Positions 18,033 to 38,042 of a stretch of DNA of 55,559 nt are shown here, in pieces (the stretch's first letter is position 1; each line of letters opens with the position of its first letter). The position numbers and the translations under genes are program-made. The notes beneath the pieces are model-generated. The model made no database searches, was not told where the DNA came from, and worked only from the letters and a program-made list of their open reading frames with translations. The DNA comes from Enterobacteriaceae bacterium. Lineage in GTDB: Bacteria > Pseudomonadota > Gammaproteobacteria > Enterobacterales > Enterobacteriaceae. Location: the NCBI GenBank assembly GCA_031253755.1, contig JAIRVT010000040.1, positions 1 to 55,559 on the forward strand. Direction: 5' to 3'.

Positions 18033-18037
18033 GCGCT

Positions 18038-19138
18038 ATGAAATTTATCATTGAACGTGAGCAATTATTAAAGCCTTTACAACTGGTTAGCAGCCCTTTA
18101 GGCGGCCGTCCTACTCTGCCGATTTTAAGCAACTTGTTGTTACAAGTGACGGAAGGCTCCCTGTTACTGACAGGAACCGATTTAGAAATGGAAATGCGGG
18201 CGCGTGTCGCGCTTGCTCGGCCGCATGAAGCAGGCTCTACGACCGTTCCCGCGCGTAAATTCTTTGATATCTGGCGCGGGTTGCCTGAAGGCGCGGAAAT
18301 CAGCGTTGAACTGGATGGCGACCGCATTCTGGTTCGTTCCGGTCGCAGCCGCTTTGCACTTTCGACCCTTCCGGCGGCCGGTTTCCCCAATCTGGATGAC
18401 TGGCAGAGCGAAGTGGAATTTTCACTGCCGCAAGCTACATTGAAGCGCCTGATTGAGTCCACGCAATTTTCGATGGCCCATCAGGATGTCCGCTATTATT
18501 TGAACGGAATGCAGTTCGAAACCGAAGGGGAAGAGCTGCGTACGGTTGCCACCGACGGCCATCGTCTGGCAGTTTGCTCCATGAATATCGGCCAGAGTTT
18601 ACCTTCGCATTCCGTGATTGTGCCCCGTAAAGGCGTCATTGAACTGATGCGGCTGCTGGATGGCGGCGATAATCCGCTCCAATTACAGATTGGCAGCAAC
18701 AATATCCGCGCTCATGTGGGCGATTTCACCTTTACCTCAAAACTGGTTGATGGTCGTTTTCCTGATTACCGTCGTGTTTTGCCCAAAAACCCGGATAAAG
18801 TGCTGGAAGCCAGTTGCGATCTGCTGAAACAGGCGTTTTCACGGGCGGCAATTTTATCCAACGAAAAATTTCGCGGCGTCCGCATCTACCTGAGCGAAAA
18901 CCAGCTCAGAATTACTGCCAATAACCCAGAACAGGAAGAAGCAGAAGAGATTGTGGATGTCAGCTATCAGGGCACTGAGATGGAAATCGGTTTCAACGTC
19001 AGTTATATCCTGGACGTGCTCAACGCATTGAAATGTGAGCAGGTCAATTTACTGCTGACGGATGCCACCTCCAGTGTCAGGATCGAAAATTCAGCCAGTC
19101 AGGCTGCGACTTATGTCGTGATGCCGATGCGTCTATAA
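18038..19138 (+). CDS. dnaN: DNA polymerase III beta sliding clamp
   Basis: The 366-residue protein has the three-fold repeated clamp domains of DnaN and the E. coli length. It encircles DNA as a dimer and tethers polymerase III and other partners through the hydrophobic cleft near the C-terminal PMRL, which is present here (YVVMPMRL). It lies 5 bp after dnaA and 23 bp before recF. Confidence 0.98.
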
Positions 19139-19161
19139 CATGTGCCAGTAAACTCATAAAA

Positions 19162-20334
19162 ATGATCCTTTCGCGTTTGTTGATCCGCGATTTTCGTAAT
19201 ATCGCAAATGCCGATTTGCCATTAGCGACCGGGTTTAATTTTCTGGTGGGTTCTAATGGCAGCGGCAAAACGAGTGTATTGGAATCCATCTACACACTGG
19301 GCCACGGGCGCGCTTTTCGCAGCATTCAGGCGGGAAAAGTGATCCGCCATGATTGCGAGGAATTTATTCTTCATGGGCGCATTTTTCATGGAGAAAAGCG
19401 TTATGGAAAAGAGCGTTATGGAGAAGAGTGTTATGGAGAACAGCTTGATGAGATCGAAAAACAACAATTCCATGAACGAACCGTATCCATTGGATTAAGC
19501 AAAAACCGTCAGGGCGACAGCAAAGTCAGAGTCGATGGCAGTGACGGGCACAAAATTGCCGAACTGGCAAAAATGCTGCCGATGCAGCTGATCACACCCG
19601 AAGGCTTTACCTTGTTGAATGGTGGCCCGAAATACCGGCGGGCGTTTATCGACTGGGGCTGTTTCCATAATGAGCCGCGTTTTTTTACCGCATGGGCGAA
19701 CCTGAAAAGGCTGCTCAAACAACGAAACGCCGCCTTACGGCAGGTCACCCGTTATAGCCAGATTCAGCACTGGGATCAGGAACTGGTTCCGCTGGCGACT
19801 CAGGTCAGCCAATGGCGGGCTGACTATATTGCAGGTATCACGGACGATATCGAAAAAACCTGCCAACAATTTTTACCCGAATTCACGCTCAGCGTCGCCT
19901 TTCAGCAAGGCTGGGACAAAGAGAGTGAATACGCAGAACTCCTCGCGCGGCAGTTTGAGCGCGACAGAGCGTTAACCTACACCGCATCTGGCCCCCACAA
20001 AGCCGACCTGCGGATCAGGGCAGACGGCACATCGGTTGAAGATATGCTTTCACGCGGTCAGCTCAAATTACTGATGTGCGCCCTGAGGTTAGCGCAGGGT
20101 GAATATTTCACCCGACAGAGCGGGCAAAAATGCCTGTATCTGCTTGATGATTTTGCCTCTGAATTGGATGCCGGTCGCCGTAAATTATTGGCCGAGCGTC
20201 TGAAATCTACGCAGGCTCAGGTGTTTGTCAGTGCTATCACACCTGAGCAAGTTGCAGACATGATTGACGTAAATAGCAGGATGTTTCGCGTAGAAAATGG
20301 CAAAATATGCCCCATTGATTTCGAGAGCCTCTAA
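19162..20334 (+). CDS. recF: DNA replication and repair protein RecF, with insertion
   Basis: RecF is an SMC-like ATPase that helps RecOR load RecA at gaps. Walker A GSNGSGKT is at residues 30-37; the ABC signature [20 protein letters not shown] and Walker [14 protein letters not shown] are intact. At 390 residues it is about 33 longer than E. coli RecF (357). Most of the excess is a charged insertion after HGRIFHG (about residues 75-100), built from a 15-bp repeat that yields [15 protein letters not shown] blocks. The C-terminal tail is also longer by a few residues. Catalytic motifs suggest it still works. Confidence 0.96.
19386..19445 (+). repeat. 15-bp tandem repeat x4 inside recF
   Basis: Four degenerate units (first TCATGGAGAAAAGCG, then TTATGG-type units at 19401, 19416 and 19431) lie end to end and keep the frame. 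They create most of the extra residues in RecF. Confidence 0.85.
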
Positions 20335-20390
20335 CTATTGATTTCGAGGGCCTCTAACTATAGCCAAAGGTATCGATCCCAAAGGTATCG
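20314..20390 (+). repeat. Tandem duplications at the recF 3' end
   Basis: A 23-bp unit beginning ATTGATTTCGAG and ending CTCTAACT, which includes the recF stop, is present twice (20314-20336, 20337-20359; one mismatch). Immediately after, CCAAAGGTATCG occurs at 20364 and 20379, a 15-bp period. Confidence 0.85.
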
Positions 20391-20432
20391 GCAGCTCGAA
20401 AAATGTAGGGTACGAGGTTCAACCACAGTTAA

Positions 20433-22865
<2,433 letters not shown>

Positions 22866-22913
22866 TATTGTGGCTTCAATTTCATCTCTCAGATAATTTT
22901 CGTTATTTTAAAT

Positions 22914-22952
22914 AAAAAAACCTCATATCAACAAATGATATGAGGTTTTTTA
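22914..22952 (+). terminator. Rho-independent terminator of gyrB
   Basis: CCTCATATCA (22921-22930) pairs with TGATATGAGG (22936-22945) around a 5-nt loop, flanked by an A-run upstream and a T-run downstream (22946-22951). Confidence 0.92.
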
Positions 22953-22972
22953 TTTAACTCAAAACATAAATA

Positions 22973-23069
22973 GCTTTCCAAAATGACAGGAGTATTCCTT
23001 ATCCCGCGCGACGCGCGGGATAAGGAAAAAACCACGGCTGATACTCTCACTATTATGAAAAATCATATA
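22973..23069. repeat. ~97-bp palindromic repeat, copy A (left flank of the biosynthetic locus)
   Basis: Copies A and B (31503-31598) align over their whole length in the same orientation with about 10 differences. The core is a perfect 13-bp stem (CCTTATCCCGCGC, GAC loop, GCGCGGGATAAGG), and the outer parts are imperfectly inverted (GGAGTATT left, GATACTCTC right). It looks like a non-coding MITE or REP-type element. It is followed at 23078 by TATACCCTATGGATTTCA, resembling one end of the ERIC element at 25581. Confidence 0.8.
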
Positions 23070-23315
23070 GAAACATCTATACCCTATGGATTTCAATTTT
23101 CGGCTTCTATCTCCTCGTATATCCGAGAAGTATAGATATTCATATTAATTTTCACCTTGAAAGGCGAATGGTATAGCTAAAAACATAAAATACAATAACT
23201 GTATTTTAATAGAGCAGGAATAGTATTTATTCTATATTATGATATAAAGATATTGTTTTTATAATTACAATACGTTAATTTCATTCTCCATATTACAAAA
23301 CAAAGGAGAAAATTG

Positions 23316-24020
23316 ATGTTAGACTCAACCTTTCAAGGTAACTATGAATGTGTAAATAACACATACACCACCGCACAATTAAAAAAATCCATTTTAAATA
23401 TCATCGATAAATACAATTATCAATATTACTCATTATATCAAGAAAACCCCTATCCTTTAACAAAACGAAAATCTTATTTCATTAATTGTTTCGATGAAAA
23501 TTTCAATATTGACAAAGATTCACATAAAACGATTCTTAATTCCTTCAACATCATGCCATCTGCCACTTTTCCATTCTTTATATCATGGCATGAAAAAATG
23601 AATAACCATTATCCCGAAATATGGCGCGATTTTAACTCTCGTGAAAATATTTTAGCTCACTCAATCATCCATAAAACCCAGAAAGGAGAAAAAACATTAT
23701 GTTCTTTTTTCAGGGTTAAAAGCCATCAATATCTCAAAGAAAATATTGAATACACTCAAAAATTATTCTCTTTATCAGAATTAATAGCCAATAAACTTTC
23801 TCTATTAGTCACTGATGACACCTGCATTCCCTCTCTTACAATGCGCGAAATAGAAATAATGCGATGGGCTTCAGAAGGCAAAACATCCGCAGATATCGGT
23901 AGCATCCTGACGCTTTCAACCCGGACAGTCAACTTCCATATCGCAAATATTTTAGACAAATTGGCGGTGCCAAATAAAGTCGCCGCCATCGCAAAAGCTA
24001 TATGTTACAATTTGATATAA
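23316..24020 (+). CDS. LuxR-family transcriptional regulator (solo, divergent sensor domain)
   Basis: The C-terminal 65 residues (SLTMREIEIMRWASEGKTSADIG, then STRTVNFHIANILDKLAV) are a textbook LuxR/GerE helix-turn-helix. The N-terminal ~160 residues look like an autoinducer-binding-type domain, but the usual W-x3-Y...DP...W pattern that contacts acyl-homoserine lactones is not evident, so a different ligand or none is likely. No luxI-type synthase is nearby. ATG 23316 has AGGAG seven bases upstream. It is tail-to-tail with the ATP-grasp gene (2 bp between) inside the repeat-bounded locus, so it is the natural pathway regulator (inference). Confidence 0.8.
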   Translation: MLDSTFQGNYECVNNTYTTAQLKKSILNIIDKYNYQYYSLYQENPYPLTKRKSYFINCFDENFNIDKDSHKTILNSFNIMPSATFPFFISWHEKMNNHYPEIWRDFNSRENILAHSIIHKTQKGEKTLCSFFRVKSHQYLKENIEYTQKLFSLSELIANKLSLLVTDDTCIPSLTMREIEIMRWASEGKTSADIGSILTLSTRTVNFHIANILDKLAVPNKVAAIAKAICYNLI

Positions 24021-24022
24021 TA

Positions 24023-25318
24023 TCAAAAAATAAACTCTTGTATCAGTGATTGCCATAAACAATTAATCGCGTTCATACATTCAAGGTGATTTACTTCTTG
24101 GCTCTTGATATAAACACAGACATATCCACAAAACTCATTATTAGTTTTAGGTATTTTATAAACCTGAGAATTTTCTGTAACCTTAATTTTGGTCGATATT
24201 ATTTCATATTGATAACTTTGAAGCAGGTCATGAACCAGAGACATAAATTTTTGCTTAACGATATTTTCATCAAACCCTTTTCTTATAACGCCATCCTTAG
24301 GCGAAACCAAATTCATAATAAATGCGCTACCATGAGCCTTAGGTATCGTATTAATATCTGAATATCCCTGAACCAAATGATCTACCCAAATTTTCTGCAA
24401 TGAAATATCAAAAACTTTATTCGCCATATCCCAAATATGCATACCCGCTGGCCGACGATTTGTTTCAACTAAGAAAGTTTCACCCGTTGATGAATTGAGT
24501 TTGATTTCATTATGGAAAGCACCATAACGTTGCCCGGAAATTAGATTCATACTCTGCCCGGCTTTTATTAAAGACAGGCTATTTAGCGGAGAACACTGCG
24601 CTGGGACAATTTGACCAATCTCCACGGGATATTCACCGATTTGGTTAACTTTTTGAGTTAAAAAAGAAAGTGTGCCGACACCATCATAGGAAAACTCGGC
24701 ATCAAATTCGATTAACTCCTCAGCGATAATGACACTCTGATGGGCTGCCTGTAATGTTTCCTCATAAGACGATTTTAATAGGGAATAATTTTTCACTGCT
24801 TTTACGCCAATATTCGCCCGCCCATCGGTCGGTTTAATGACAATTCCTGATTGACACAAACCGAAAAAATCATCCAACTGTCCATAATTATCAATTTTTG
24901 TTGAGCGTGGAATAACAATATTCTGGGCTATCAAAAAATTAGCAAGCACCTTTTCTTGTTCCCGATATTGTAATTTATTGATTCCGGCAAAACTTAATAT
25001 GGCATCATCACCATATATCCCCAATTTTTTCGCAAGCGCGGCGGCATGTCCTGAAACAGCATCCATAAAAGGCAAAATACAAACACACTCCATTTCCAAA
25101 CTTGCCATTAACTTCAACACCTCACCCTGATAGTCAGGCGATGAAACAGGCAAATGGAAAACATGATGACAAAATTTATTTTCATCTCCTGAAAGTAAAT
25201 CGCTGATAATAACCATATCCAGCGCGTATTTATCATGAATATAATCTTTGATAAGTTTTAATTCATCAATACGAGCAGGAAGATAATCCAGTACCAGTAA
25301 ATATTTTTTAATAGACAT
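24023..25318 (-). CDS. ATP-grasp ligase (amino-acid/peptide ligase type)
   Basis: The 431-residue protein has the ATP-grasp pattern: a nucleotide-binding lysine segment IVIKPTDGRANIGVKAV (159-175), the adenine-side acidic pair in IIAEELIEFDAEFS (198-210), and the metal/phosphate-binding HNEIK (269-273) and ETNRRPAG (285-292). Such enzymes activate a carboxylate as acyl-phosphate and join it to an amine, as in BacD-like dipeptide ligases. It is last in the minus-strand gene string, 16 bp after the small membrane gene. In this locus it would plausibly condense the modified amino acid with another residue, or close a ring; the substrate is unknown. Confidence 0.82.
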   Translation of the reverse strand: MSIKKYLLVLDYLPARIDELKLIKDYIHDKYALDMVIISDLLSGDENKFCHHVFHLPVSSPDYQGEVLKLMASLEMECVCILPFMDAVSGHAAALAKKLGIYGDDAILSFAGINKLQYREQEKVLANFLIAQNIVIPRSTKIDNYGQLDDFFGLCQSGIVIKPTDGRANIGVKAVKNYSLLKSSYEETLQAAHQSVIIAEELIEFDAEFSYDGVGTLSFLTQKVNQIGEYPVEIGQIVPAQCSPLNSLSLIKAGQSMNLISGQRYGAFHNEIKLNSSTGETFLVETNRRPAGMHIWDMANKVFDISLQKIWVDHLVQGYSDINTIPKAHGSAFIMNLVSPKDGVIRKGFDENIVKQKFMSLVHDLLQSYQYEIISTKIKVTENSQVYKIPKTNNEFCGYVCVYIKSQEVNHLECMNAINCLWQSLIQEFIF

Positions 25319-25334
25319 TTTATTTCCTTTGAGA

Positions 25335-25568
25335 TTAGTCGTTGGTTGTAAAATAACGAAATGGCTTAATGATTAAAAAAGATAACACGATAAATATAAA
25401 AAACATCAAGAAAATAAATCTATAATCAATGAATAATAATAATCTTGCACGGATGAAACTCGCCAGAGGAACGGCGAGTAGAGGTATACACCAGCACAGG
25501 CACAGCAAAAATAATAAATGCCTCTGAAAATATAGAAAAAAACGTGCAAAAACAATTTTTGTGATCAC
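25335..25568 (-). CDS. Small hydrophobic membrane protein within the biosynthetic locus
   Basis: A 77-residue frame starts at GTG 25568 with AGAGG eight bases upstream. It is almost wholly hydrophobic with two likely membrane helices (HLLFLLCLCWCIPLLAVPL; FIFLMFFIFIVLSFLII) separated by a short basic loop. No family was recognised. It could be a genuine small protein, or the remaining end of a larger transporter cut by the ERIC element that begins 13 bp upstream. Its tight 16-bp spacing to the ATP-grasp gene favours translation. Confidence 0.5.
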   Translation of the reverse strand: MITKIVFARFFLYFQRHLLFLLCLCWCIPLLAVPLASFIRARLLLFIDYRFIFLMFFIFIVLSFLIIKPFRYFTTND

Positions 25569-25580
25569 TGATGTAACCTC

Positions 25581-25706
25581 TATACCCTATGGATTCCAAG
25601 CTGCGTCGCGGCGACAAGTAAGTTCATCCCCTGAACATAGATAACTATGTGACTGGGGTGAGCGAGCGCAGCCAACAAAGAGGCAGTTTGAAAGACGACG
25701 GGTATA
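25581..25706. repeat. ERIC (intergenic repeat unit) element, 126 bp
   Basis: The element runs from TATACCC to GGGTATA and contains the signature GTGACTGGGGTGAGCGAG followed by GCAGCCAAC, which matches the ERIC consensus in sequence and size. It sits between the carbamoyltransferase stop and the small membrane gene, so it splits the operon into two parts and would be carried in the transcript as a large hairpin. Confidence 0.9.
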
Positions 25707-25710
25707 ATTA

Positions 25711-27405
25711 TTAATGTCGTGCTTTAACGATATAATGCCCCAAAACAAGATAGTCAATTCTGGTTTTTAAAAATGTTTTAATCGCATCTTCAGGTGAGCA
25801 AACAATTGGCTCACTATCATTAAGAGAAGTATTAAGTAGAATAGGTACTCCCGTCAGCTTATGGAAAGAATTAATCAGCCGAGCATAACTTGCATTTATT
25901 TTCTCATCAACAAGTTGTACACGGGCCGTTCCATCAGCATGGGTTACCGCAGGAATTAAATCGCGCTTGTCTTGCTCTACGTCCATCGCTAATAACATAT
26001 ATTGAGCAGCGTCAGGGAGGCCACGTGAAATAAACCAATCATTGGCATACTCACGCAAAACACTTGGCGCAAACGGCCGGAAAAATTCCCGGTGCTTTAC
26101 CTTAACATTCATTAAATCACGAATAGCTTTATTGCGAGGATCTGCCAATAAACTGCGGTTACCAAGTGCTCTTGGACCAAATTCCATACGCCCCTGAAAC
26201 CAGGCAATGACATTATTATCTGCAATCAAAGAGGCCACTTCATCATAGATATTTTCTGACTTTTCCCAAGCCAAATCATATTTTGATAATGCTTCCTCAT
26301 ATTGTAAATCTGAATATTCCGGACCAAGATAAGCATTCGTCATGGAATAACGCTGTTTATGATCCATCATATGATGCCAAATATATAACGCGGCACCAAT
26401 TGCTGTTCCCGCATCATGCGCTGCTGGCTGAACATAAATATCATCAATATCACATTGCTGATATAAGAGTTGGTTAGTAATACAATTCAGTGCCACACCG
26501 CCAGCCAAACAGAGATGTCGGCTGCCCGTGACTGACAAATAATATTGCGCCATATTCATAACAATATCATCGGTCACTACTTGCAATGTCGCGGCAATAT
26601 CATAATGCTCCTGACGTAATTCATCGCTTTTACGGCGCAACGGTAAATTAAATAATTTCTCCAGATTAGAGAATGAATGGCCGCGAAATTCCAGCACATG
26701 ATTATCAATCGTAAATTGCCCTTCTGGTAAACACTTCACTATTTCAGCAAATTGCGCCTTGAACTTTTCTGCATTACCATAAGCTGCCATTCCCATCACT
26801 TTACAGGCATCATATTCAGAAAAACCTAAATATGCCGAAAATTTCTCCCACATAAATCCGATGGAATTAGGATAAGAAATCGTTGCAATTTTAGTTAACT
26901 GATTATCTTTACCAATAAAGATGCCACTCGTATTATCTTCACCGATGCCATCAAGGGAAAGAATAAGTGATTCATTAAATGGTGAAGGATAATAAGCAGA
27001 AGCCGCGTGAGCAGTATGATGTGCTACCCAATGGAAATGACCACGGAAGCCCATTTCATATAATTTCAACGGCACATTCGTCGTCTGACGATAAAATAAT
27101 GCCTCACCGGATCCCGTTGCCCAACTATCGGGTAATTTCACCTCGTCACTGTATACTGATTTATATCTCGCAACAGGATCAATTGAATAGCCAATACTCT
27201 CTATATCAGATAATTGTATATTCGCAAAAGAGAGAGCAGCTTGAATAGATTCCAATGGTAATTCATCAGGATTATCTATATTTGCCGGTTTGCCATGTTT
27301 ACATCTGTTTAAACGTTCTTCTTCGATAGCGAAAATAATTTCACCATTCTTAATAAGACAAACCGCCGATTCATGATAGACAGAATTAATACCTAATATA
27401 TACAT
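25711..27405 (-). CDS. NodU/CmcH-type carbamoyltransferase
   Basis: This 564-residue enzyme matches the TobZ/NodU/CmcH family, which uses carbamoyl phosphate and ATP to make carbamoyl-AMP and then carbamoylates a hydroxyl (or amine). The N-terminal YrdC-/Kae1-like part has VYHESA (His11) and the metal-binding H129-H130-x-x-H133 in WVAHHTAHAASAYYPSPF; SLDGIGEDNTSG and the C-terminal GRMEFGPRALGNRSLLADPR complete the family pattern. Length is typical. It starts 11 bp after the DDAH-like gene and ends next to the ERIC element. In this context it should carbamoylate the pathway's amino-acid intermediate (inference). Confidence 0.9.
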   Translation of the reverse strand: MYILGINSVYHESAVCLIKNGEIIFAIEEERLNRCKHGKPANIDNPDELPLESIQAALSFANIQLSDIESIGYSIDPVARYKSVYSDEVKLPDSWATGSGEALFYRQTTNVPLKLYEMGFRGHFHWVAHHTAHAASAYYPSPFNESLILSLDGIGEDNTSGIFIGKDNQLTKIATISYPNSIGFMWEKFSAYLGFSEYDACKVMGMAAYGNAEKFKAQFAEIVKCLPEGQFTIDNHVLEFRGHSFSNLEKLFNLPLRRKSDELRQEHYDIAATLQVVTDDIVMNMAQYYLSVTGSRHLCLAGGVALNCITNQLLYQQCDIDDIYVQPAAHDAGTAIGAALYIWHHMMDHKQRYSMTNAYLGPEYSDLQYEEALSKYDLAWEKSENIYDEVASLIADNNVIAWFQGRMEFGPRALGNRSLLADPRNKAIRDLMNVKVKHREFFRPFAPSVLREYANDWFISRGLPDAAQYMLLAMDVEQDKRDLIPAVTHADGTARVQLVDEKINASYARLINSFHKLTGVPILLNTSLNDSEPIVCSPEDAIKTFLKTRIDYLVLGHYIVKARH

Positions 27406-27416
27406 TTCTTTATCTC

Positions 27417-28220
27417 TTAATTCAGTTTCAGGACCAAACAGCGCAAACTTCCGCCACTTTTAAGGTATTCGCTCATATCACACTTCACGACATTAAAACC
27501 AAGTTCATTAATTTTATTCTCAACTTCTGGGGTACAGTCATGCAACAGAATATCTTTACCGATAGGAATGTTATTGCAGACAAATAACTCTTTGGCATCA
27601 TATTCTGAAACGGCGATACGGCGACTAAAATTGTTTTCAATATATTTCCGGCTTTCCGGTGTAAATGCTTCCGGATAATAAATGATGGTATCTTTATCAA
27701 TAAAAGAAAATGCTAAAGCGACATGGAAAAACGTATTATCCTGAATATGTAATTCACCACGGACTTTAAGCTCAGGATAGGTATCACGAATCGCTTTCAC
27801 GGCCTCTTTATCTGAACGAGGACCAAAACCGAAAATAATACTGTCCTCCCAATAAATAACATCGCCCAAACCTTCAAAATAAACCTCTGGATCTACGCTG
27901 TGAATTTCAACACCTTCGTTCTTCAGGAAATCAATATAATGCTGTCTTTCTCCTTGCCGTTCAGGATGCCTGAAATTACTTGCCAAGAATTTATTATTGT
28001 GGATCATGCCACAATCTCCAGCAAAGGTCATATCAGGTAAACCTTGGACGGGTTCAATTATTTTAACTTTAACACCACGTTCAACTAATCTATCATAAAC
28101 ATAATCCCACTGTTTTTTTGCTAAAACTTTGTCTACTTTATTTTCCGTATCCATCCAATCATTAATAACATATTCGATATCAAAGAAATCAGGTTTACAC
28201 ATCAGTAACTCATGAATCAT
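27417..28220 (-). CDS. DDAH/amidinotransferase-fold enzyme (guanidino-modifying superfamily)
   Basis: The 267-residue protein has the pentein-fold pattern: FAGD (67-70), FEGLGD (115-120) for guanidinium binding, a central His166 in FFHVALAF and the nucleophile Cys261 in GGSLRCLVL near the C-terminus. Relatives hydrolyse methylated arginines to citrulline or transfer amidino groups. ATG 28220 is chosen because GAGGAAAC precedes it; the longer frame adds 57 residues with no homology. It overlaps the ArgG-like gene by 11 bp, implying coupled translation. In this locus it may convert a guanidine to a ureido group or move an amidine; which one cannot be told from sequence alone. Confidence 0.85.
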   Translation of the reverse strand: MIHELLMCKPDFFDIEYVINDWMDTENKVDKVLAKKQWDYVYDRLVERGVKVKIIEPVQGLPDMTFAGDCGMIHNNKFLASNFRHPERQGERQHYIDFLKNEGVEIHSVDPEVYFEGLGDVIYWEDSIIFGFGPRSDKEAVKAIRDTYPELKVRGELHIQDNTFFHVALAFSFIDKDTIIYYPEAFTPESRKYIENNFSRRIAVSEYDAKELFVCNNIPIGKDILLHDCTPEVENKINELGFNVVKCDMSEYLKSGGSLRCLVLKLN

Positions 28221-29403
28221 GTTGTTTCCTCTTTTTAATTGCACTGCATTTACTATGGATATTAAATATTTTCGAAAAACCTTCCGCATCAGATTGACTA
28301 TAAAGATGCCCGCAATTATAAATAGCCATCGTTGGGTCATATATTGATGTATCCGAATGGCGTGAAATAACACGCACGTAATACTTGCCAATTTCCAGAC
28401 TGATTACGCCATTAACATTCGAATTAACACTATCAATAAAGGCATTTAAGTGATCCATAAGAGGATCATACCAAAGCCCTGAATAAACCATTTCCGTCCA
28501 CTTTTTATCAATCGTTTCTTTGAACCAATTTTCATGTCTGTTGGAACAAAATAGCTCTAATTGTTTATGGGCGGTAATTAAAATATGAGCCGCAGGAGAC
28601 TGATATATTGCCCTGCTTTTCAATCCAACAACACCATCTTCAACCATATCAAATACGCCAGTTAAATAACGCCCACCAATATCATTCAGTTCTTTAATAA
28701 TTTGGTGAATTTCTTTTTCCTTATTATTTAATTTAATGGGAATTCCTTTTTCAAAAGTCACACTCACTACAATTGGCTTAGCGCTATCGTTAGCTGCTCT
28801 TGAAATAACCTGTTTTACATCTTCGGGTATCTGGTTGTCTGGATATTCCAAATCACCGCACTCTATTGTTAATCCCCACATATTTTCACTGGTTGAATAG
28901 GGATTATTACAGCCAAACTCCAAAGGAATACCATAATTAATTGCATACTTATAAACATCTTCATCCGTATATGAAAAATGACGTAATGAGGCCAGCGGCT
29001 TTTTACCCAGAATTTCGATATTCATATCCATTCTGACCTGATCATTTCCACGGAATTGATGTGCTATATAGTCAATACCCAATTCTTCGGCGACTTCAAC
29101 TGCCGCTTCAGCAAGAGCGGGACGAGAAAGCGCGGCACTAAGATGATAACCCTCTTGATATATTGCATTGGCTTTAATGGCTTTGGATATTATGTTATTG
29201 GCAAATTGAGCGCGATAATCTTTATAAATAAAATGATCTGCACCGGCTGCCATACATTCTAATTCAATTTCTTCCACATCACCTATTTTTCCCTCATCAA
29301 TAAACAAGGAATATACTTCATAAAAACTCTTTTTAAGTTCTTTGATAATCAGCGGGTTGTAAAGCCTATTATAAAAAATAACAATCACACTATTAGAATT
29401 CAT
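28210..29403 (-). CDS. Argininosuccinate synthase-like protein with altered ATP-binding loop
   Basis: The 397-residue sequence is collinear with ArgG: FRGNDQVRMDMN (118-129), PYSTSENMWGL, GRYLTGVFDMVEDGVVGLKSR and SPAAHILITAHKQLE. In ArgG the first strand is followed by the PP-loop SGGLDTS, which holds ATP; here strand VIVIF leads into YNRLYNP, one residue shorter, with the glycine pair and serines gone. The frame begins with ATG at the usual place, so the loop is replaced rather than truncated. It overlaps the genes before and after by 11 bp each. It is therefore probably not a housekeeping ArgG. It may bind a citrulline/aspartate-like ligand with a different activation chemistry. Confidence 0.85.
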   Translation of the reverse strand: MNSNSVIVIFYNRLYNPLIIKELKKSFYEVYSLFIDEGKIGDVEEIELECMAAGADHFIYKDYRAQFANNIISKAIKANAIYQEGYHLSAALSRPALAEAAVEVAEELGIDYIAHQFRGNDQVRMDMNIEILGKKPLASLRHFSYTDEDVYKYAINYGIPLEFGCNNPYSTSENMWGLTIECGDLEYPDNQIPEDVKQVISRAANDSAKPIVVSVTFEKGIPIKLNNKEKEIHQIIKELNDIGGRYLTGVFDMVEDGVVGLKSRAIYQSPAAHILITAHKQLELFCSNRHENWFKETIDKKWTEMVYSGLWYDPLMDHLNAFIDSVNSNVNGVISLEIGKYYVRVISRHSDTSIYDPTMAIYNCGHLYSQSDAEGFSKIFNIHSKCSAIKKRKQHDS

Positions 29404-30418
29404 TTAATGTGCATCCTAAATCATATATAATATTTTTCAATTCATTGTCACAAGTGCTTTCTTGAATTAACGCTGCAAAGTCGTGATCGGCAAGCCATGT
29501 ATCATTGTAAATTGTATCAACATAACGTTCACCACTATCAGGAATAATGATGACAATATTATCTCCACTATTGAAATGATGTAAATTATCTAATGCAGCA
29601 GCTAATGCACAGGCACCTGTACCACCAATTAATATTCCTTCTTTTCGTGCTAATTCTCTTGCTGTTTTGAAAGCAATTAAATCGGAGATTTTTATCGCAT
29701 CATCAATATGACTATCATCCAATATAATTGGACGGAACGCCAACCCGGCACCCTGTACAAAATATTTCCCAGAATCGCCACCAAATATAATTGAACCCTG
29801 AGGCTCTATAGCAAAGACCTTTGTTTCAGGATTCCTTTCTTTTATATATTTTGATACACCCGTAATCGTTCCACAGCTGCCTGCGGTAATAAAAACCCCG
29901 TTTAATTGTTCTCCGAATTGATCATAAATTTCATGGGCTGTTGAATGATAATGTTCCAGAGGATTATCTTCATTCTCAAATTGCATGGGGCTGAAAGCAT
30001 TTGGGTACGAAGCAATAATTTTTTTTGTTAACTCGATTCGATATAAAACCGTATCAATACCATCGTCAAACTCGGGTAAAAAGATAATATCAGCGCCATA
30101 GGCTTTTATTTTATCTCTTTTCGCATTCGGTACCATCCTATCCAGAATAGCAATAAATTTATATCCTTTATAAGCACATGCCATTGCTAACCCAATAGCC
30201 GTGTTTCCTGATGAGGGTTCGATAACCGTCATTCCCTGTTTCAGTAAACCTTTATTTTCCGCATTTTCCAGCATAGCTATCGCTATTCTGTCTTTAATAC
30301 TTCCGCCGGGGTTAGTCGTTTCCATTTTAAGATAAACGTTTATCCCATGAGTATTAATTTTATTAAGTAACACACAAGGTGTATTACCTACCATGCTTAA
30401 AATATTACTCGCTTTCAT
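29393..30418 (-). CDS. SbnA/cysteine-synthase-like PLP enzyme
   Basis: The 341-residue protein is a fold-type II PLP enzyme with the internal aldimine Lys42 in NPGGSIKDR, the substrate loop PSSGNTAIG and the phosphate-binding AGSCGTITG. The ending PDSGERYVDTIYNDTWL resembles SbnA, which joins O-phosphoserine and glutamate on the way to 2,3-diaminopropionate, more than primary CysK. ATG 30418 gives the normal N-terminus (SMVGNTP); the frame upstream adds 50 residues with no family match. It is first in the minus-strand operon and should build a beta-substituted alanine precursor. The SbnB partner is absent, so the exact product is open. Confidence 0.85.
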   Translation of the reverse strand: MKASNILSMVGNTPCVLLNKINTHGINVYLKMETTNPGGSIKDRIAIAMLENAENKGLLKQGMTVIEPSSGNTAIGLAMACAYKGYKFIAILDRMVPNAKRDKIKAYGADIIFLPEFDDGIDTVLYRIELTKKIIASYPNAFSPMQFENEDNPLEHYHSTAHEIYDQFGEQLNGVFITAGSCGTITGVSKYIKERNPETKVFAIEPQGSIIFGGDSGKYFVQGAGLAFRPIILDDSHIDDAIKISDLIAFKTARELARKEGILIGGTGACALAAALDNLHHFNSGDNIVIIIPDSGERYVDTIYNDTWLADHDFAALIQESTCDNELKNIIYDLGCTLNEF

Positions 30419-30686
30419 TTTTTTATTCTCTATATAAGGCAGTACTTGGATTTGGCTAACAACAGCTAATGTATAGCGATTAACCTGATAGATAAATTTT
30501 ATGCTTTTAGGAAATTTAAAATAATCAAAAAGAGTTTCAAACTTCCCCTTAAAGCCTTTCATACTCAACTTTCATTCCTCTGGCTCTATATAGCGGCTTC
30601 CTGAAAATACATTAATCCCCACACTTTTTTTTTCAACTGTCATTTCTACCAGTTGACGATTTTTATATTTCGAGCAAAGCTACAGT

Positions 30687-30736
30687 TATACCCGTTGTCT
30701 TTCAAATTGCTATTTTCAAGACAACGGGAAGATATA
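30687..30736. repeat. ERIC-end inverted repeat in the divergent promoter region
   Basis: CCCGTTGTCTT (30691-30701) and AAGACAACGGG (30718-30728) are exact complements around a 16-nt loop, bounded by TATA. The left arm, with TCAAATTGC after it, closely matches the end of the ERIC element at 25706 read in reverse, so this is probably an internally deleted ERIC. It lies in the 380-bp gap between the divergent SbnA-like and LysE genes, where it could also act in regulation. Confidence 0.65.
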
Positions 30737-30798
30737 AAAGGCATATTAAGGTTGGATTGGTCTAATAAAATTTAACGATTGTTTTAGGGTATTAATTA

Positions 30799-31437
30799 AT
30801 GGAAAGTTTGACTCTTTCTTTAATTGCCATTGCGGGTACATTACTGTTGGGAGCGATGAATCCCGGAGAAAGTTTCCTCCTCGTCGCACGGACAACAGTA
30901 GCAACTTCTCGCCTTAATGGTATTGCAACTGCATTAAGTATGGGAACTGGCAGTTTAATCTATTCTCTCGCGGCTATTTTTGGACTGCAAAAGCTGATTA
31001 AAACCATGCCTGACTTATATTTATTCATAAAAATATTGGGTGGATTATATCTTATTTATCTTGCGTATAAATTTGCCATTAAAAAGAAAAAAGTCATCAT
31101 AAGTGGCGATAGCTCAATTGCAGAACAACAATCTTTTTTGCAAAGCTACTTTCAAGGATTATTGATACAACTCAGTAACCCTAATACGGCTTTAATTTTT
31201 GTCAGTGTATTTTCTGTCATATTAAGCCATACACTGCCACTGGAAATGTATTTTATTTTACCGTCCATTTCTTTCTCCATTGATACGTTATGGTATATTT
31301 TTGTGGCTGTCGTATTATCCTATCCAAAACCCAGAAATACTTATCTTCATTACAAAGTGTGGCTGGATTCACTGGCGGGAATATTCATGTTATTTTTAGG
31401 ATTAAAGACATTATATTCTGCCATTAATCTATTTTAA
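30799..31437 (+). CDS. LysE/RhtB-family amino-acid exporter
   Basis: The 212-residue membrane protein has the LysE family start (SLIAIAGTLLLGAMNPGESFLLVAR) with the conserved NPG and the GGLYLIYLAYK helix. Family members export amino acids or their analogues from the cytoplasm. It is divergent from the SbnA-like gene and lies inside the right boundary repeat, so it most likely exports the product of this locus and protects the producer (inference). Confidence 0.88.
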   Translation: MESLTLSLIAIAGTLLLGAMNPGESFLLVARTTVATSRLNGIATALSMGTGSLIYSLAAIFGLQKLIKTMPDLYLFIKILGGLYLIYLAYKFAIKKKKVIISGDSSIAEQQSFLQSYFQGLLIQLSNPNTALIFVSVFSVILSHTLPLEMYFILPSISFSIDTLWYIFVAVVLSYPKPRNTYLHYKVWLDSLAGIFMLFLGLKTLYSAINLF

Positions 31438-31502
31438 TATACCCGTCGGGTGATGTTGCAGAACCTCGCCGGGTATTTAGCACAAAAAGTATTTTTTAAA
31501 TC

Positions 31503-31598
31503 GCTATTCAAAATGATAGGAGTATTCCTTATCCCGCGCGGGGCACGGGATAAGGAAAAAACACTACTGATACTCTCACTATTATGAAAAAGCATATA
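31503..31598. repeat. ~96-bp palindromic repeat, copy B (right flank of the biosynthetic locus)
   Basis: Direct-orientation partner of the repeat at 22973-23069: same CCTTATCCCGCGC core, though here the right arm reads GCACGGGATAAGG and so the stem is imperfect. It starts 66 bp after the LysE stop. The remaining DNA up to the hcp start at 31801 carries ERIC-end-like sequence (TTTCAAGATGCG near 31696) and no gene. Confidence 0.8.
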
Positions 31599-31800
31599 AC
31601 AAAATTTATCAAATAGAAATATAAAAACAAACATGCTTGTTTTTATATTTCTGTCTTTATTTATACCTGTATGCTATGGTGTCTACCAATCCAATTTCAA
31701 GATGCGTATTATATTTCTCCGCTGTGCATCGTCTTACGGATTACAATTTTAAGTTTATCAAACATCAATTTGAAAAATAAATAAACTAGGATGGTATTTT

Positions 31801-32280
31801 ATGTCATACATGATTTATTTATCTTTGAAAGGTAAAAAACAAGGCTTAATTTCTGCCGGATGTTCAACCCCGGATTCAATCGGTAATCGATATCAAAGTG
31901 GGCATGAGGATCAAATACAGGTATTGAGTTTAAACCACTCCATCACGCGGGAACAAAATGTCAGCCATCAGCCCATACAATTTATTAAACCCGTTGATAA
32001 ATCTTCGCCATTATTAGCAATGGCAATCGACTCAAATGAATCACTCGATGGTAAATTTATTTTTTACAGGACCAGCCAAGTTGGGCAATTAGAATTGTTT
32101 TATGAAGTTAAAATAACTGAAGCAACTATCACGGATATTTCCTGTGTATATCCACATTCAATAAATAATTTCGACGCGATGCCACATGAACGGGTTTTCC
32201 TGAATTATAAATCTATTTCATGGAATCATATTATCGCCGGAACATCAGCCTATAGTATATGGGAAGATAGGACGTATTAA
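31801..32280 (+). CDS. hcp: Hcp-family type VI secretion tube protein
   Basis: The 159-residue protein follows the Hcp family used as orphan or effector-linked tube subunits: MIYLSLKGKKQGLISAGCST, the HEDQIQVLSLNH segment, SPLLAMAIDSNE and the IAGTSAYSIWEDRTY ending. Hcp hexamers stack into the T6SS inner tube and carry effectors. No sheath, baseplate or ATPase genes are in the window, so this copy depends on a T6SS elsewhere. It converges on the toxin/immunity cluster, from which it is separated by a terminator. Confidence 0.88.
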   Translation: MSYMIYLSLKGKKQGLISAGCSTPDSIGNRYQSGHEDQIQVLSLNHSITREQNVSHQPIQFIKPVDKSSPLLAMAIDSNESLDGKFIFYRTSQVGQLELFYEVKITEATITDISCVYPHSINNFDAMPHERVFLNYKSISWNHIIAGTSAYSIWEDRTY

Positions 32281-32288
32281 GCAATAAC

Positions 32289-32316
32289 AATAAGCATAGC
32301 ATTTGCTATGCTTATT
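32289..32316. terminator. Bidirectional terminator between hcp and the immunity array
   Basis: AATAAGCATAGC (32289-32300) pairs with GCTATGCTTATT (32305-32316) around a 4-nt loop. The right arm overlaps the stop codon of the minus-strand gene. AT-rich flanks can serve as U-tracts both ways. Confidence 0.7.
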
Positions 32317-32746
32317 TACACAATGATATATTTTTTACATATTTATTAGGTGCTATCCATGATGATTTAGCACATGTTATGTAATTTTCATCTTTTAGTT
32401 TAAAATCAACATAAAAAGAAAAAAAGAAAGTGAAAATAAATCCAACAACGCATATAAAACCACAAATACCACCGATTTTACTAATTAATGCCATCTTATT
32501 TTTATTTTTCAACAGCTCAATATTATCACTAAAAACAGTCTTAAATAAGAATAAAGAAAAATACATACACAGAGGACTACCCCAAATAAACCAAGAGCTT
32601 TTTGTGGAAAATGTAATAATATCACTTTTGGTTAAAAGCCCTTTGTAATCCATTATTGATGCTAAACTACCAAATATAGCAACACCCAAAAATATTAGCG
32701 CAACAATAAATGTTTTTATTCTAGATGGTGTATTGATATTATCCAC
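32312..32746 (-). CDS. Small four-helix membrane protein, immunity-like paralogue 1
   Basis: The 144-residue protein is the last of four tandem paralogues. Shared features are four hydrophobic segments, the block STKSSWFIWGSPLCMYFSL, FSFYVDFKL and the ending CAKSSWIAPNKYVKNISLC with paired cysteines. It resembles the DUF1240-type small membrane proteins found in Enterobacterales (recalled, not searched). It starts at GTG 32746 in the context TCGTGG, as do its paralogues. It has a longer loop between helices 2 and 3 (NIELLKNKNKMALISK) than the others. A role as membrane immunity protein against the upstream hydrophobic toxin is inferred from context. Confidence 0.7.
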   Translation of the reverse strand: MDNINTPSRIKTFIVALIFLGVAIFGSLASIMDYKGLLTKSDIITFSTKSSWFIWGSPLCMYFSLFLFKTVFSDNIELLKNKNKMALISKIGGICGFICVVGFIFTFFFSFYVDFKLKDENYITCAKSSWIAPNKYVKNISLCK

Positions 32747-32814
32747 GATAATATTTCTCCCATAGACTGAAAAATTGATCAGGATGATAAGGTGTAGGTG
32801 GTTTTACCTTATAC

Positions 32815-33213
32815 TTAGTGGCAAAGTGAAATATTTTTAACATATTTATTATTATCCATCCATGATGATTTACTACAAATTAAATAACCCTCGGTTCTTA
32901 ATTTATCATCAACATAAAAAGACATAAACAAAGTAAGAGTAAAACCAATTATTGTTATACATGCTATATAATCTCCAACCTTACTATTTAATGATTTTTC
33001 TTTATTTAAAGATATCATTAGCAACATATAAGAAAAATAAATAAATACAGGTGCGCTCCAAATAATCCCAGCGCTCTTCCATGAAAATCTAATGATATGC
33101 CATCGTCTAAAAAAACCTATATAATCATATAGTGAAAAAAATGAAACCAATGCTGAAATAAAAATAAAAAACAACATTCCAAAATATAATTTCATTTTAT
33201 TTACATTACCCAC
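32815..33213 (-). CDS. Small membrane protein, immunity-like paralogue 2 (most diverged)
   Basis: The second paralogue keeps the topology and the terminal CSKSSW...NKYVKNISLC signature but has changed the central block to SWKSAGIIWSAPVFIYFSY. GTG 33213 (GNVNKMK) is preferred over ATG 33270, because it aligns with the other family starts, has GGGGGAA upstream and removes an overlap with the preceding gene. This makes a 132-residue product. Divergence of the loops implies a different specificity, or decay of selection. Confidence 0.65.
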   Translation of the reverse strand: MGNVNKMKLYFGMLFFIFISALVSFFSLYDYIGFFRRWHIIRFSWKSAGIIWSAPVFIYFSYMLLMISLNKEKSLNSKVGDYIACITIIGFTLTLFMSFYVDDKLRTEGYLICSKSSWMDNNKYVKNISLCH

Positions 33214-33262
33214 GACTATATTTCCCCCACATATTGAAAAATAAGCATATAGACGAATAAAT

Positions 33263-33673
33263 TTATTCACACAATGATATATCTTTTACATATTTATTAG
33301 GTGCCACCCATGATGACTTACTACACATTATATAATGTTCACTTCTTAGCTTAAAATCAACATAAAAAGAAGAAAACAAAGAAAAAACAAACCCAATTAT
33401 ACCTATAAAAACAAAACAAATTCCTATTTTATTATTAAACACCACCGGTTTATTGGTTAATAGATACTTAAAAGACAGTAGAGAAAAATACATAGAAAAT
33501 GGGCTGCACCAAATAAACCAAACACTTATTGTTGAAAATTCAATGAGATCACTTCTAGTTAAAAAATCTCTATAATTAATTATAGATCCTAACCCGCCAA
33601 ATATAGCAATACTCATAAAAACCAATGATACAATAGATATTTTCACTCTGGATGGAATATTTTTATTAACCAC
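33263..33673 (-). CDS. Small membrane protein, immunity-like paralogue 3
   Basis: The third paralogue (136 residues, GTG 33673) has STISVWFIWCSPFSMYFSLLSFKYLLTNKPVVFNNKIG and ends CSKSSWVAPNKYVKDISLC. Its 3' part and the spacer before it are nearly identical in DNA to those of paralogue 4 (offset 460 bp), while its 5' part differs. That pattern points to recent duplication or gene conversion. Confidence 0.7.
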   Translation of the reverse strand: MVNKNIPSRVKISIVSLVFMSIAIFGGLGSIINYRDFLTRSDLIEFSTISVWFIWCSPFSMYFSLLSFKYLLTNKPVVFNNKIGICFVFIGIIGFVFSLFSSFYVDFKLRSEHYIMCSKSSWVAPNKYVKDISLCE

Positions 33674-33722
33674 GAGAATATCTACCCCACATATTGAAAA
33701 ATAAGCATATAGACGAATAAAT

Positions 33723-34124
33723 TTATTTACACAATGATATATCTTTTACATATTTATTAGGTGCTATCCATGATGACTTACTACATGTTATATAATGTTC
33801 ACTTCTTAGCTTAAAATCAACATAGAAAGAAAAAAAGAAAGTAAAAATAAATCCTATTATAGCCAGAAATCCCCAAACACTCCCTATTTTATTATTAAAT
33901 ATCACCGGTTTTTTAGTTATCAGGTACTTAAATAATAATAAAGAGAAATACATACATAATGGACTAGTCCAAATAAACCAAGAACTTTTTGTTGAAAACA
34001 TTACAATTATATTTCTAGTTATAAATGAAATATAATTATCTATTGATGCTAATCCAGCAATTATTGCAACACACATGAATGCTACTGCTACTATAAACAC
34101 TTTTAATCTATTCACATTATCCAC
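33723..34124 (-). CDS. Small membrane protein, immunity-like paralogue 4 (adjacent to toxin)
   Basis: This 133-residue copy starts at GTG 34124, overlapping the end of the toxin-like gene by 8 bp, so the two are translationally coupled. It contains STKSSWFIWTSPLCMYFSLLLFKYLI and the ending CSKSSWIAPNKYVKDISLC. Coupling makes it the most likely cognate immunity protein. Pore-forming colicins commonly have four-helix immunity proteins of similar size (known for the class). Confidence 0.72.
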   Translation of the reverse strand: MDNVNRLKVFIVAVAFMCVAIIAGLASIDNYISFITRNIIVMFSTKSSWFIWTSPLCMYFSLLLFKYLITKKPVIFNNKIGSVWGFLAIIGFIFTFFFSFYVDFKLRSEHYITCSKSSWIAPNKYVKDISLCK

Positions 34125-35010
34125 GAGAGTATCTACTCCATATACTAAAAAATTGGTCTGGGTGGTAAGGTGTAGGTGGCTTTATCTTATGTTCTTTAAG
34201 TCTTTTAATTATGGTTTCACTAATTTTAAATTGGTTATCTAGCAAATATAAAACTGCTGCAATACCAAGTCCAAGAGAAAAAATACCTATAGCAACAAGA
34301 GTAGCACTAGATCCAATAGCAAAAATTGGCGAAGTCATTATTATTCCAACAGCAAGCCGAGCTATTGTCGTCGATACTATTAATTTAGCCATATCCATCG
34401 ATAAATTAACAAAAAAATCAGTTAAGCTATATTCATCTTTAACCATTAATTCAACGGCTCTATAGGCAGCGGAAAATATAATTCCGAACCTGACGCCCGA
34501 TACTATACTACTTTCCATAGCCACAGAACCAACGCCTACTTCCAATATCTTTTTATTACTAATAAGATATCGTGTCGCATTTAAATACTTTCTAACCGCT
34601 GGATAACCCGATAGCTTTATATATCTTTCGCCATTTTTCCCTAAATACTCTGTCGCTATTATACCTTTGCCTTTTAATTCATTTACGATATGTGTAAATA
34701 TTCCGACATTTGTCGGTTTGAAATGGCTTGCCACTTTAAAAACACCGGGGATATCTTTTATATTACCTGCGAAATTTGATAATGGATCAGCCACGGAATA
34801 AATGCCATCTCGCAATGATTTCAGATCACTGCCTAATTCTTTCAAAAAAATCATCGCTTCTTCTTGATCTAATAAGGCGTGATACTCCACATTTTCATTA
34901 AGTTGCCTTTCGAGATCCTTATAATTAATGTAATCCATCTGCTTTTTAAAATTAGCGGCATAATCAAAATCATCCTCAACCCATGTTCTTAAGCGTGGAT
35001 CAAATTTCAT
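34117..35010 (-). CDS. Putative pore-forming toxin / secreted effector
   Basis: The 297-residue protein has a soluble, charged N-terminal half and two long hydrophobic segments in the C-terminal half (about residues 160-190 and 215-257, the latter rich in Gly, Ala, Ile), then a basic tail ending PPTPYHPDQFFSIWSRYSRG. No signal peptide, Hcp or VgrG domain is present. I recognise no named family. The hydrophobic C-terminal hairpin, the coupled four-helix protein gene and the convergent hcp together suggest a membrane-depolarising antibacterial toxin. ATG 35010 follows GGAGTC. This is inference; an ordinary membrane protein is possible. Confidence 0.5.
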   Translation of the reverse strand: MKFDPRLRTWVEDDFDYAANFKKQMDYINYKDLERQLNENVEYHALLDQEEAMIFLKELGSDLKSLRDGIYSVADPLSNFAGNIKDIPGVFKVASHFKPTNVGIFTHIVNELKGKGIIATEYLGKNGERYIKLSGYPAVRKYLNATRYLISNKKILEVGVGSVAMESSIVSGVRFGIIFSAAYRAVELMVKDEYSLTDFFVNLSMDMAKLIVSTTIARLAVGIIMTSPIFAIGSSATLVAIGIFSLGLGIAAVLYLLDNQFKISETIIKRLKEHKIKPPTPYHPDQFFSIWSRYSRG

Positions 35011-36780: not shown

Positions 36781-36890
36781 GTGACTGCTCCCCGCCGTAA
36801 ACGGCGAGGCTTCCCACTTCTCAGGCCGCTACCGTTGGTGCAACGGATTTACGCAGGCCTCCATGGGCAGAAACGACGTGTCCCGCCGCC
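36781..36890 (-). ncRNA. Probable omega-RNA region at the tnpB 3' end
   Basis: On the minus strand, the tnpB 3' end runs into GAAGCCTCGCCGTTTACGG then CGGGGAGCAGTCAC, the stable hairpin typical of the transposon right end that forms the scaffold of TnpB guide RNAs. The guide would be read from the flanking DNA below 36781. Boundaries are estimates; the presence of the RNA is inferred from the family. Confidence 0.4.
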
Positions 36891-37984: not shown

Positions 37985-38042
37985 AATGACCGCTCAATGG
38001 TAACATTGCCTTATATTACTACCGTTACAGGCATCCTTGCAA

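Follow-up and report, generated by a model that had tools for sequence, protein, structure and literature searches.

A putative carbamoylated ureido/guanidino-peptide gene cluster, free of nonribosomal peptide synthetases and apparently partly decayed, in a Xenorhabdus genome

What might be made by a compact group of genes in which an ArgG-like protein, a DDAH-like hydrolase and a carbamoyltransferase stand together without a nonribosomal peptide synthetase (NRPS) or polyketide synthase (PKS), and is it still made? The question is raised by positions 22973-31598 of contig JAIRVT010000040.1, of which bases 1-55,559, the whole stretch analysed, are here called the window. The window genome is Xenorhabdus, an insect-nematode symbiont; the genus group of the host includes the genome of X. 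szentirmaii (locus L016), to which gyrB and the covered part of recF are 94% identical, and the draft (3.0 Mb) is 82.9% complete. A preliminary description of this DNA proposed an NRPS/PKS-free biosynthetic locus for an exported nitrogen-rich amino acid or peptide. That is still the best reading, strengthened by the recurrence of six of the genes in 14 of 15 loci and by the L-amino-acid ligase domain of a second ligase in relatives. With a probability of roughly 0.55, judged from sequence, the locus would be a copy, in part decayed, of an NRPS-independent cluster that has spread horizontally and has nine genes in its full form, with a predicted pathway to a carbamoylated ureido/guanidino-peptide. 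The eight open reading frames (ORFs) first described are all present at their positions, and neither NRPS nor PKS was found in the ten window proteins scanned with Pfam.

The cluster recurs as a unit. A contig collection of 84,980 species was scanned with two short patterns from the N-terminus of the ArgG-like protein, which more divergent relatives would escape, and yielded 15 loci, 13 in Photorhabdus, one in Xenorhabdus and one in Pectobacterium. Six core genes, for the pyridoxal phosphate (PLP) enzyme, ArgG-like protein, DDAH-like pentein hydrolase, carbamoyltransferase, ATP-grasp ligase 1 and LuxR regulator, co-occur in 14 of them and in three genera, each matched over at least 91% of its length. 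The fifteenth locus, in Photorhabdus heterorhabditis (L029), is decayed: the PLP gene is matched over 65%, the pentein gene lies in pieces, the gene of the major facilitator superfamily (MFS) exporter has no match and only 15% of ligase 1 is left. Whole-genome searches place the ArgG-like gene in 12 of 12 Photorhabdus, 2 of 25 Pectobacterium and 2 of 30 Xenorhabdus genomes (window included); it is absent from the other 28 Xenorhabdus at E 1e-90. Ligase 1 has three matches above 50% identity in 295 genomes of the family, the window's own among them, and no other relative of it (E 1e-35) or of the pentein hydrolase (E 1e-62) was found in 369 genomes of the class and 398 of the phylum. Eight further class genomes passing E 1e-65 with the ArgG-like profile all hold genuine ArgG, with SGGLDTS present. 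Plasmid records gave only matches below 60% identity; in both regions examined, the closest plasmid-borne carbamoyltransferases (45%) have none of the other cluster genes beside them. On the Mycetohabitans rhizoxinica megaplasmid (L098, 12001-14704) a 45%-identical carbamoyltransferase stands beside a methyltransferase and an NRPS-type gene.

The cluster occupies three chromosomal sites: between gyrB and asd in both Xenorhabdus, between rplI and fklB in 13 of 13 Photorhabdus loci, and beside mutS in both Pectobacterium. Xenorhabdus and Photorhabdus are sister genera, yet the window PLP, ArgG-like and carbamoyltransferase proteins are 77-80% identical to those of Pectobacterium betavasculorum (L017) and 66-68% to those of a Photorhabdus (L026). 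Since the order of similarity of these three proteins departs from the accepted relationships of the genera, lineage-to-lineage transfer is likely. GC content is 36.0% over 22973-31598, against 47-51% in five 1-kb bins at 18000-22999.

The full set comprises a LuxR regulator, two ATP-grasp ligases, MFS and LysE exporters, carbamoyltransferase, pentein hydrolase, ArgG-like protein and PLP beta-synthase. All nine are matched in a second Pectobacterium (L097); ligase 2, LysE and a whole MFS gene are all present there and in P. betavasculorum. In X. szentirmaii the cluster sits between gyrB and asd, as it does in the window, and there, as in the two Pectobacterium, ligase 2 lies between LysE and the PLP gene. 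From the window ligase 2 is gone, about 107 bp at 30684-30791 replacing its 1257 bp. Otherwise the two Xenorhabdus loci are colinear, except that in the window the MFS gene lacks 940 bp, 25583-25707 holds about 120 additional bases, the stretch between gyrB and LuxR cannot be aligned, and a block of 3.8 kb (Hcp/DUF1240) stands on the far side of the cluster. The small membrane protein read earlier at 25335-25568 is thus a piece of a broken MFS transporter, shifted in frame and with the 940 bp gone from its inside. The intact gene in X. szentirmaii encodes 391 aa (PF07690), the remnant finds a counterpart for 99-100% of its length in 14 of the 15 related loci and in L097 as well, and the MFS gene is whole in 12 of 13 Photorhabdus loci. 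Both scars (25683-25707 and 30686-30710) hold inverted arms of a second dispersed repeat, which has 64 sites in the genome at no more than one mismatch and none for the reversed control; these arms may have mediated the MFS damage and the loss of ligase 2.

With two of nine genes broken or lost, and with the independent copy of P. heterorhabditis likewise decayed, the locus could be a dead relic in this strain, a possible but hardly a probable state. Seven genes are open, however, and appear to have been under purifying selection since the divergence from X. szentirmaii: the ratio of nonsynonymous to synonymous rates (dN/dS) is 0.03-0.12 for the seven full-length cluster genes, beside 0.047 for gyrB and 0.039 for asd, a rough measure with synonymous sites near saturation (pS 0.51-0.65 in the seven genes) that would miss function lost very recently. 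In Photorhabdus, too, the loci are without ligase 2 and have one exporter.

Most of the families named in the preliminary description stand (GerE-type LuxR, carbamoyltransferase, pentein, ArgG-like, PLP beta-family, LysE), the small membrane protein being the exception. The ArgG-like protein scores 304.1 bits with the NCBIfam argininosuccinate synthase equivalog TIGR00032 (cut-off 268.2), which is passed by 3 of 3 such proteins scanned (304, 277 and 285 bits against 268), and narrowly misses PRK00509 (327.3 against 334). It is 29% identical to the host's own ArgG. The genuine argG is found on another contig (C2), between ORFs reading as argB and argH, and has 603 bits to PRK00509. Ordinary arginine metabolism, against which the preliminary description had set its own scheme, has in its favour the ArgG-like and deiminase-like families of the cluster; with a genuine argG in such surroundings elsewhere, and the ArgG-like gene missing from most Xenorhabdus, this setting is extremely unlikely.

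In human argininosuccinate synthase, according to PMC13289927, citrulline is contacted by Tyr87, Asn123, Arg127, Ser189, Glu191, Glu270 and Tyr282, aspartate by Thr119, Asn123 and Asp124, and ATP by sixteen residues, ten of them especially mutation-sensitive. In an alignment of 16 rows (the window and 15 relatives; human numbering from the same source), all seven citrulline contacts are kept, apart from Thr for Ser189 in three rows and Cys for Tyr87 in the decayed P. heterorhabditis row. Of the aspartate contacts Asn123 and Asp124 are kept and Thr119 is lost in every row. Among the ten sensitive ATP positions Arg95, Asp124 and Ser180 are kept, and Ser12, Gly14, Asp16, Thr17, Gly117, Thr119 and Asp182 are lost in 16/16 rows; five rows of genuine ArgG keep all ten. 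The other six ATP positions are kept to varying extents (Tyr11 and Ile98 in 13 rows each, Gln40 in 12, Leu15 in 9, Ala10 and Ala36 in none). The PP-loop SGGLDTS, found in 9 of 9 genuine ArgG (own genome and eight others), is replaced by YNRxYNP in all 16 rows, and the loop HG[AC]TGKGN, with ATP and aspartate contacts, is shortened in all 16, to HQFRGN in the window; four rows of genuine ArgG beyond the five aligned have SGGLDTS and HGCTGKGN. Invariant in the new loops are Y11 N12 R13, Y15 N16 P17, H115 Q116 F117 and G119 N120. Both loops recur in 14 of 14 further loci, which partly overlap the 16 rows.

Because the PP-loop and ATP contacts are lost, the ArgG-like protein is not classed as a synthase: with its ATP site gone, the argininosuccinate-synthase-type chemistry implied earlier is not supported, and a working ATP-dependent synthase is very unlikely from the alignment. 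An enzyme still using ATP on a ureido amino acid, as in the earlier scheme, would explain the TIGR00032 scores, the kept citrulline positions and two of the three aspartate contacts, but not two loops altered in every row or seven sensitive positions changed where genuine ArgG changes none; it is given little credit. The replacement loops are nearly invariant and therefore speak for a new role and not for decay, so that the protein has probably been repurposed. It might instead serve in self-protection, as a catalytically dead ArgG sequestering a mimic of citrulline or arginine that the cluster produces. A citrulline pocket kept without an ATP site and a genuine argG elsewhere in the genome would suit this, but a mere binder would have less need of nearly invariant loops, and the gene stands second in the operon and shares 11 bp with the PLP gene before it in the window and in L009, L016 and L097; self-protection is therefore doubtful. 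The protein thus resembles argininosuccinate synthase in citrulline pocket and TIGR00032 score and differs from it in the lost ATP site. Two structures of an ArgG-like nitrile synthetase (PDB 9leh and 9lei) match it at 92-93 bits and, from their titles, are probably ArtA/NitB. ArtA/NitB is ATP-dependent and acts in a natural-product pathway, as stated in PMC13060819. It is likewise a repurposed ArgG fold, distant in sequence and, unlike the window protein, dependent on ATP.

The pentein hydrolase has as its nearest solved structures Sll1336 and Alr4995, which we take to be the arginine dihydrolases ArgZ and AgrE. All 7 rows share Cys261, His166, Glu116 and Asp69. These residues align with Sll1336, where the guanidine-binding Asp69 has Asn in its place; this Asn presumably has a role in the second step of ArgZ. 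Position 168 is Ala in 7 of 7 rows, neither the Asp of arginine deiminases nor the Lys of DDAHs. Asp at this position holds the guanidine and Lys makes room for a dimethylamino group, according to PMC11659421. Ala168 therefore makes a bulkier or N-substituted guanidine plausible as a substrate. With DDAHs and arginine dihydrolases the protein has the pentein fold and the Cys, His and Glu in common, and differs from them by Ala168 and Asp69; its NCBIfam scores lie under the cut-offs (222.8 against 300 and 195.8 against 450 bits).

The carbamoyltransferase passes for both Carbam_trans domains (230.3 and 189.4 bits; cut-offs 27 and 24) and has novobiocin carbamoyltransferase, GdmN and TobZ as its nearest solved structures. 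With the first two of these it aligns in the conserved blocks of His and Asp, which presumably have metal and ATP roles. The PLP enzyme had been called SbnA-like, and SbnA is the best of several matches, but the score with TIGR03945 (302.2 bits) is below the cut-off of 349.95; the cystathionine beta-synthase model gives 293 bits (cut-off 510), and the enzyme stays under the cut-offs of all 25 NCBIfam models listed, of 36. The start was set at 30418 because the in-frame stretch upstream has stops in several Photorhabdus, and an extended N-terminus was rejected. An SbnB partner, already noted as missing, does not appear in ORF readings of the window, L016, L017, L018 and L097, made without an SbnB profile search and without the rest of the genomes.

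SbnA belongs to a siderophore pathway, and the product could be a metallophore of the kind of N-(1-amino-1-carboxyl-2-ethyl)-glutamic acid (ACEGA), ethylenediaminedisuccinic acid (EDDS) or an opine, and not an antimetabolite. The MFS protein is weakly like the enterobactin exporter EntS (36 bits, cut-off 324), and ORF reading shows a FecI/FecR/TonB-receptor set near the cluster in L009. No such set is read near the cluster in L011 and L012, however, and within the cluster no SbnB, receptor or uptake gene is read in the window, L016, L017, L018 or L097; LysE-type exporters, moreover, carry amino acids. A metallophore is unlikely.

Ligase 1 was called an ATP-grasp ligase before, which its Pfam score does not bear out (18.6 bits, cut-off 27) and its alignment with the clear ATP-grasp ligase of the relatives does: in a profile comparison 190 columns of the ATP-grasp core are matched to ligase 2 (E 4e-5, probability 70). 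It is matched at full length in 14 of the 15 loci. Three loci of two other genera of the family (L013, L014 and L015) hold ATP-grasp genes remotely akin to it (29%) within different gene sets; two of these regions have three adjoining ORFs of like size. The sets are possibly another peptide-ligase cluster. Ligase 2 has the domains ATP-grasp_4 and LAL_C2 (72.8 and 54.8 bits in X. szentirmaii, 60.8 and 56.6 in P. betavasculorum) and matches the structures of the L-amino-acid ligase BL00235 and BacD. In whole-genome searches of four Photorhabdus it found no match at E 1e-15 in two and weak matches in two (27-34% identity, against 65% in Pectobacterium). The exporters are of LysE/RhtC type and, in full copies of the cluster, MFS; LysE is 81% identical in X. 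szentirmaii, 77% in P. betavasculorum and 76% in L097.

DdaF and BacD are the ATP-grasp ligases of dipeptide antibiotics of dapdiamide and bacilysin type, and the dapdiamide pathway begins with an SbnA-type enzyme. Those clusters are, like the window cluster, small, with an ATP-grasp ligase in place of an NRPS and an exporter; the window cluster differs in having no SbnB, in its ArgG-like protein, pentein hydrolase and carbamoyltransferase, and in its missing ligase 2. The X. szentirmaii ligase 2 matches the DdaF and BacD models, at scores far under the cut-offs (50.7 against 840 and 59.7 against 850 bits). TAN-1057 is a dipeptide with a cyclic amidinourea derived from diaminopropionate (Dap). 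Of TAN-1057, PMC9248904 mentions just the Dap moiety. Its synthesis would require Dap, handling of a guanidine, carbamoylation and a ligase, a likeness in chemistry only; no TAN-1057 gene cluster was found for comparison in the open-access literature.

The product is likely an exported short peptide with a carbamoylated amino acid of ureido/guanidino type. The PLP enzyme would make a beta-substituted alanine, and the pentein hydrolase would convert a guanidino or N-substituted guanidino amino acid to a ureido compound. The ArgG-like protein, as a carrier or an enzyme put to new use, may bind this citrulline-like intermediate with no need of ATP. A carbamoyl group would be added by the NodU/CmcH enzyme, the ATP-grasp ligase or ligases would couple the product to another amino acid, and LysE, MFS or both would export it. 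More speculatively, and with low likelihood, ATP-free ArgG fold, pentein and PLP beta-synthase could form a new nitrogen-transfer route: an intermediate borne on arginine or citrulline would be N-substituted, and its cleavage by the DDAH-like enzyme would yield diaminopropionate or ureidoalanine without SbnB; this product would then be carbamoylated and ligated into an exported peptide, kept in Photorhabdus (ArgG-like gene 12/12).

Several observations weigh against the predicted pathway to a carbamoylated peptide and its working in the present strain. LysE and ligase 2 were not seen in the 13 Photorhabdus loci, within the stretches examined, and for that reason the term dipeptide depends mainly on the weakly recognised ligase 1, itself without a PDB sequence match up to E 0.1. 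The PLP enzyme matches structures of cystathionine beta-synthase and cysteine synthase better than that of SbnA (236 against 176 bits). The ArgG-like protein may bind ATP in a different mode, and with ligase 2 and MFS lost, this strain may no longer make the product. We know of no product or phenotype of the cluster. No description of it was found in the titles and abstract beginnings of the open-access literature searched. Erwinia carotovora subsp. betavasculorum is, we presume, the older name of P. betavasculorum. Antibiotic production by that organism was reportedly the subject, by its title, of a paper of Costa and Loper in 1997, and nothing links it to this locus.

Table 1. Features of the cluster and its borders in the window, with the basis of each assignment.
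Feature	Position	Strand	Basis
Left direct repeat, copy of the dispersed ~105-bp element	22967..23080		Genome-wide repeat search
LuxR-type regulator, GerE DNA-binding domain, convergent with the operon	23313..24020	+	PF00196, 66 bits
ATP-grasp ligase 1, last gene of the operon	24023..25318	-	Weak Pfam ATP-grasp_4; profile comparison with ligase 2
MFS exporter remnant	25335..25617	-	Internal 940-bp deletion and frame shift
~120 bp without counterpart in X. szentirmaii, ending in dispersed-repeat arm 25683-25707	25583..25707		Comparison with L016
NodU/CmcH-type carbamoyltransferase	25711..27405	-	PF02543, 189 bits; PF16861, 230 bits
Pentein (DDAH/ArgZ-like) hydrolase	27417..28220	-	Cys261, His166, Glu116, Asp69 kept; Ala168
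ArgG-like protein without ATP site	28210..29403	-	Profile scores, residue alignment
ArgG-like codons 115-120, HQFRGN instead of HG[AC]TGKGN	29044..29061	-	Alignment
ArgG-like codons 11-17, YNRxYNP instead of PP-loop SGGLDTS	29353..29373	-	16/16 rows
PLP beta-substitution enzyme (SbnA/CBS/CysK family), first gene of the operon	29393..30418	-	Profile and structure matches
Scar of lost second ATP-grasp gene; dispersed-repeat arm 30686-30710	30684..30791		Comparison with L016
LysE/RhtC-family exporter	30799..31437	+	PF01810, 116 bits
Right direct repeat, another copy of the ~105-bp element	31497..31609		Genome-wide repeat search

The operon, on the minus strand, begins with the PLP gene and continues through the ArgG-like, pentein and carbamoyltransferase genes and the MFS remnant to the ATP-grasp gene; LysE and LuxR are on the plus strand. 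The 11-bp overlaps reported for the first three minus-strand genes are confirmed (29393-29403, PLP/ArgG-like; 28210-28220, ArgG-like/pentein). The ArgG-like/pentein overlap differs elsewhere (1 bp in L009, none in L016, 4 bp in L097). LuxR is SdiA-like across residues 26-230, with a score far under the cut-off, and all 15 loci match 91-100% of its length. An operon-leader riboswitch for arginine or guanidine was sought with Rfam and not found at gathering score in the window, L016, L017, L018 or L097, 30400-30830 being empty up to E 1. A scan for sigma-70 promoters and terminators found sites no more frequent than in shuffles. PADLOC models matched none of five proteins (LuxR and LysE outside the scan), and an anti-phage role is not supported.

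The two direct repeats that had made the locus appear repeat-bounded do exist and are 87% identical, but they do not mark the ends of an island. Each is one copy of an element of ~105 bp that contains a perfect 16-bp hairpin and is scattered over the 3.0-Mb genome. Its places number at least 40, a minimum from the 40 initial candidates scored out of 72. The X. szentirmaii locus (L016:5200-18500) is not flanked by a pair of this kind. The repeats are therefore not evidence for a mobile unit, and an island with attachment-type ends is rejected. Of seven cluster-free Xenorhabdus regions 3' of gyrB, six carry an asd-like gene nearby and no cluster genes, and the seventh stops at a contig end. Just past LysE, at 31448-31479, 27 of 32 bases match the 3' end of gyrB. 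Positions 31801-35010 hold an Hcp (TssD) gene, four similar minus-strand ORFs (133-151 aa) and a larger ORF, with GC down to 27%; the block is absent at this site in X. szentirmaii, and DUF1240 is confirmed by Pfam in one of the four ORFs. An IS200/IS605-type pair of TnpB-like and TnpA-like ORFs, judged from translations, lies at 36821-38465.

Because the ArgG-like protein passes the NCBI equivalog cut-off, automatic annotation would probably label it argininosuccinate synthase despite the lost ATP site. If it is repurposed as proposed, it would be another way of reusing the ArgG fold, here without ATP. A cluster whose marker gene is present in 12 of 12 Photorhabdus searched probably makes a small exported compound and, if confirmed, would offer a handle on a class of compounds missed by NRPS/PKS-based genome mining.

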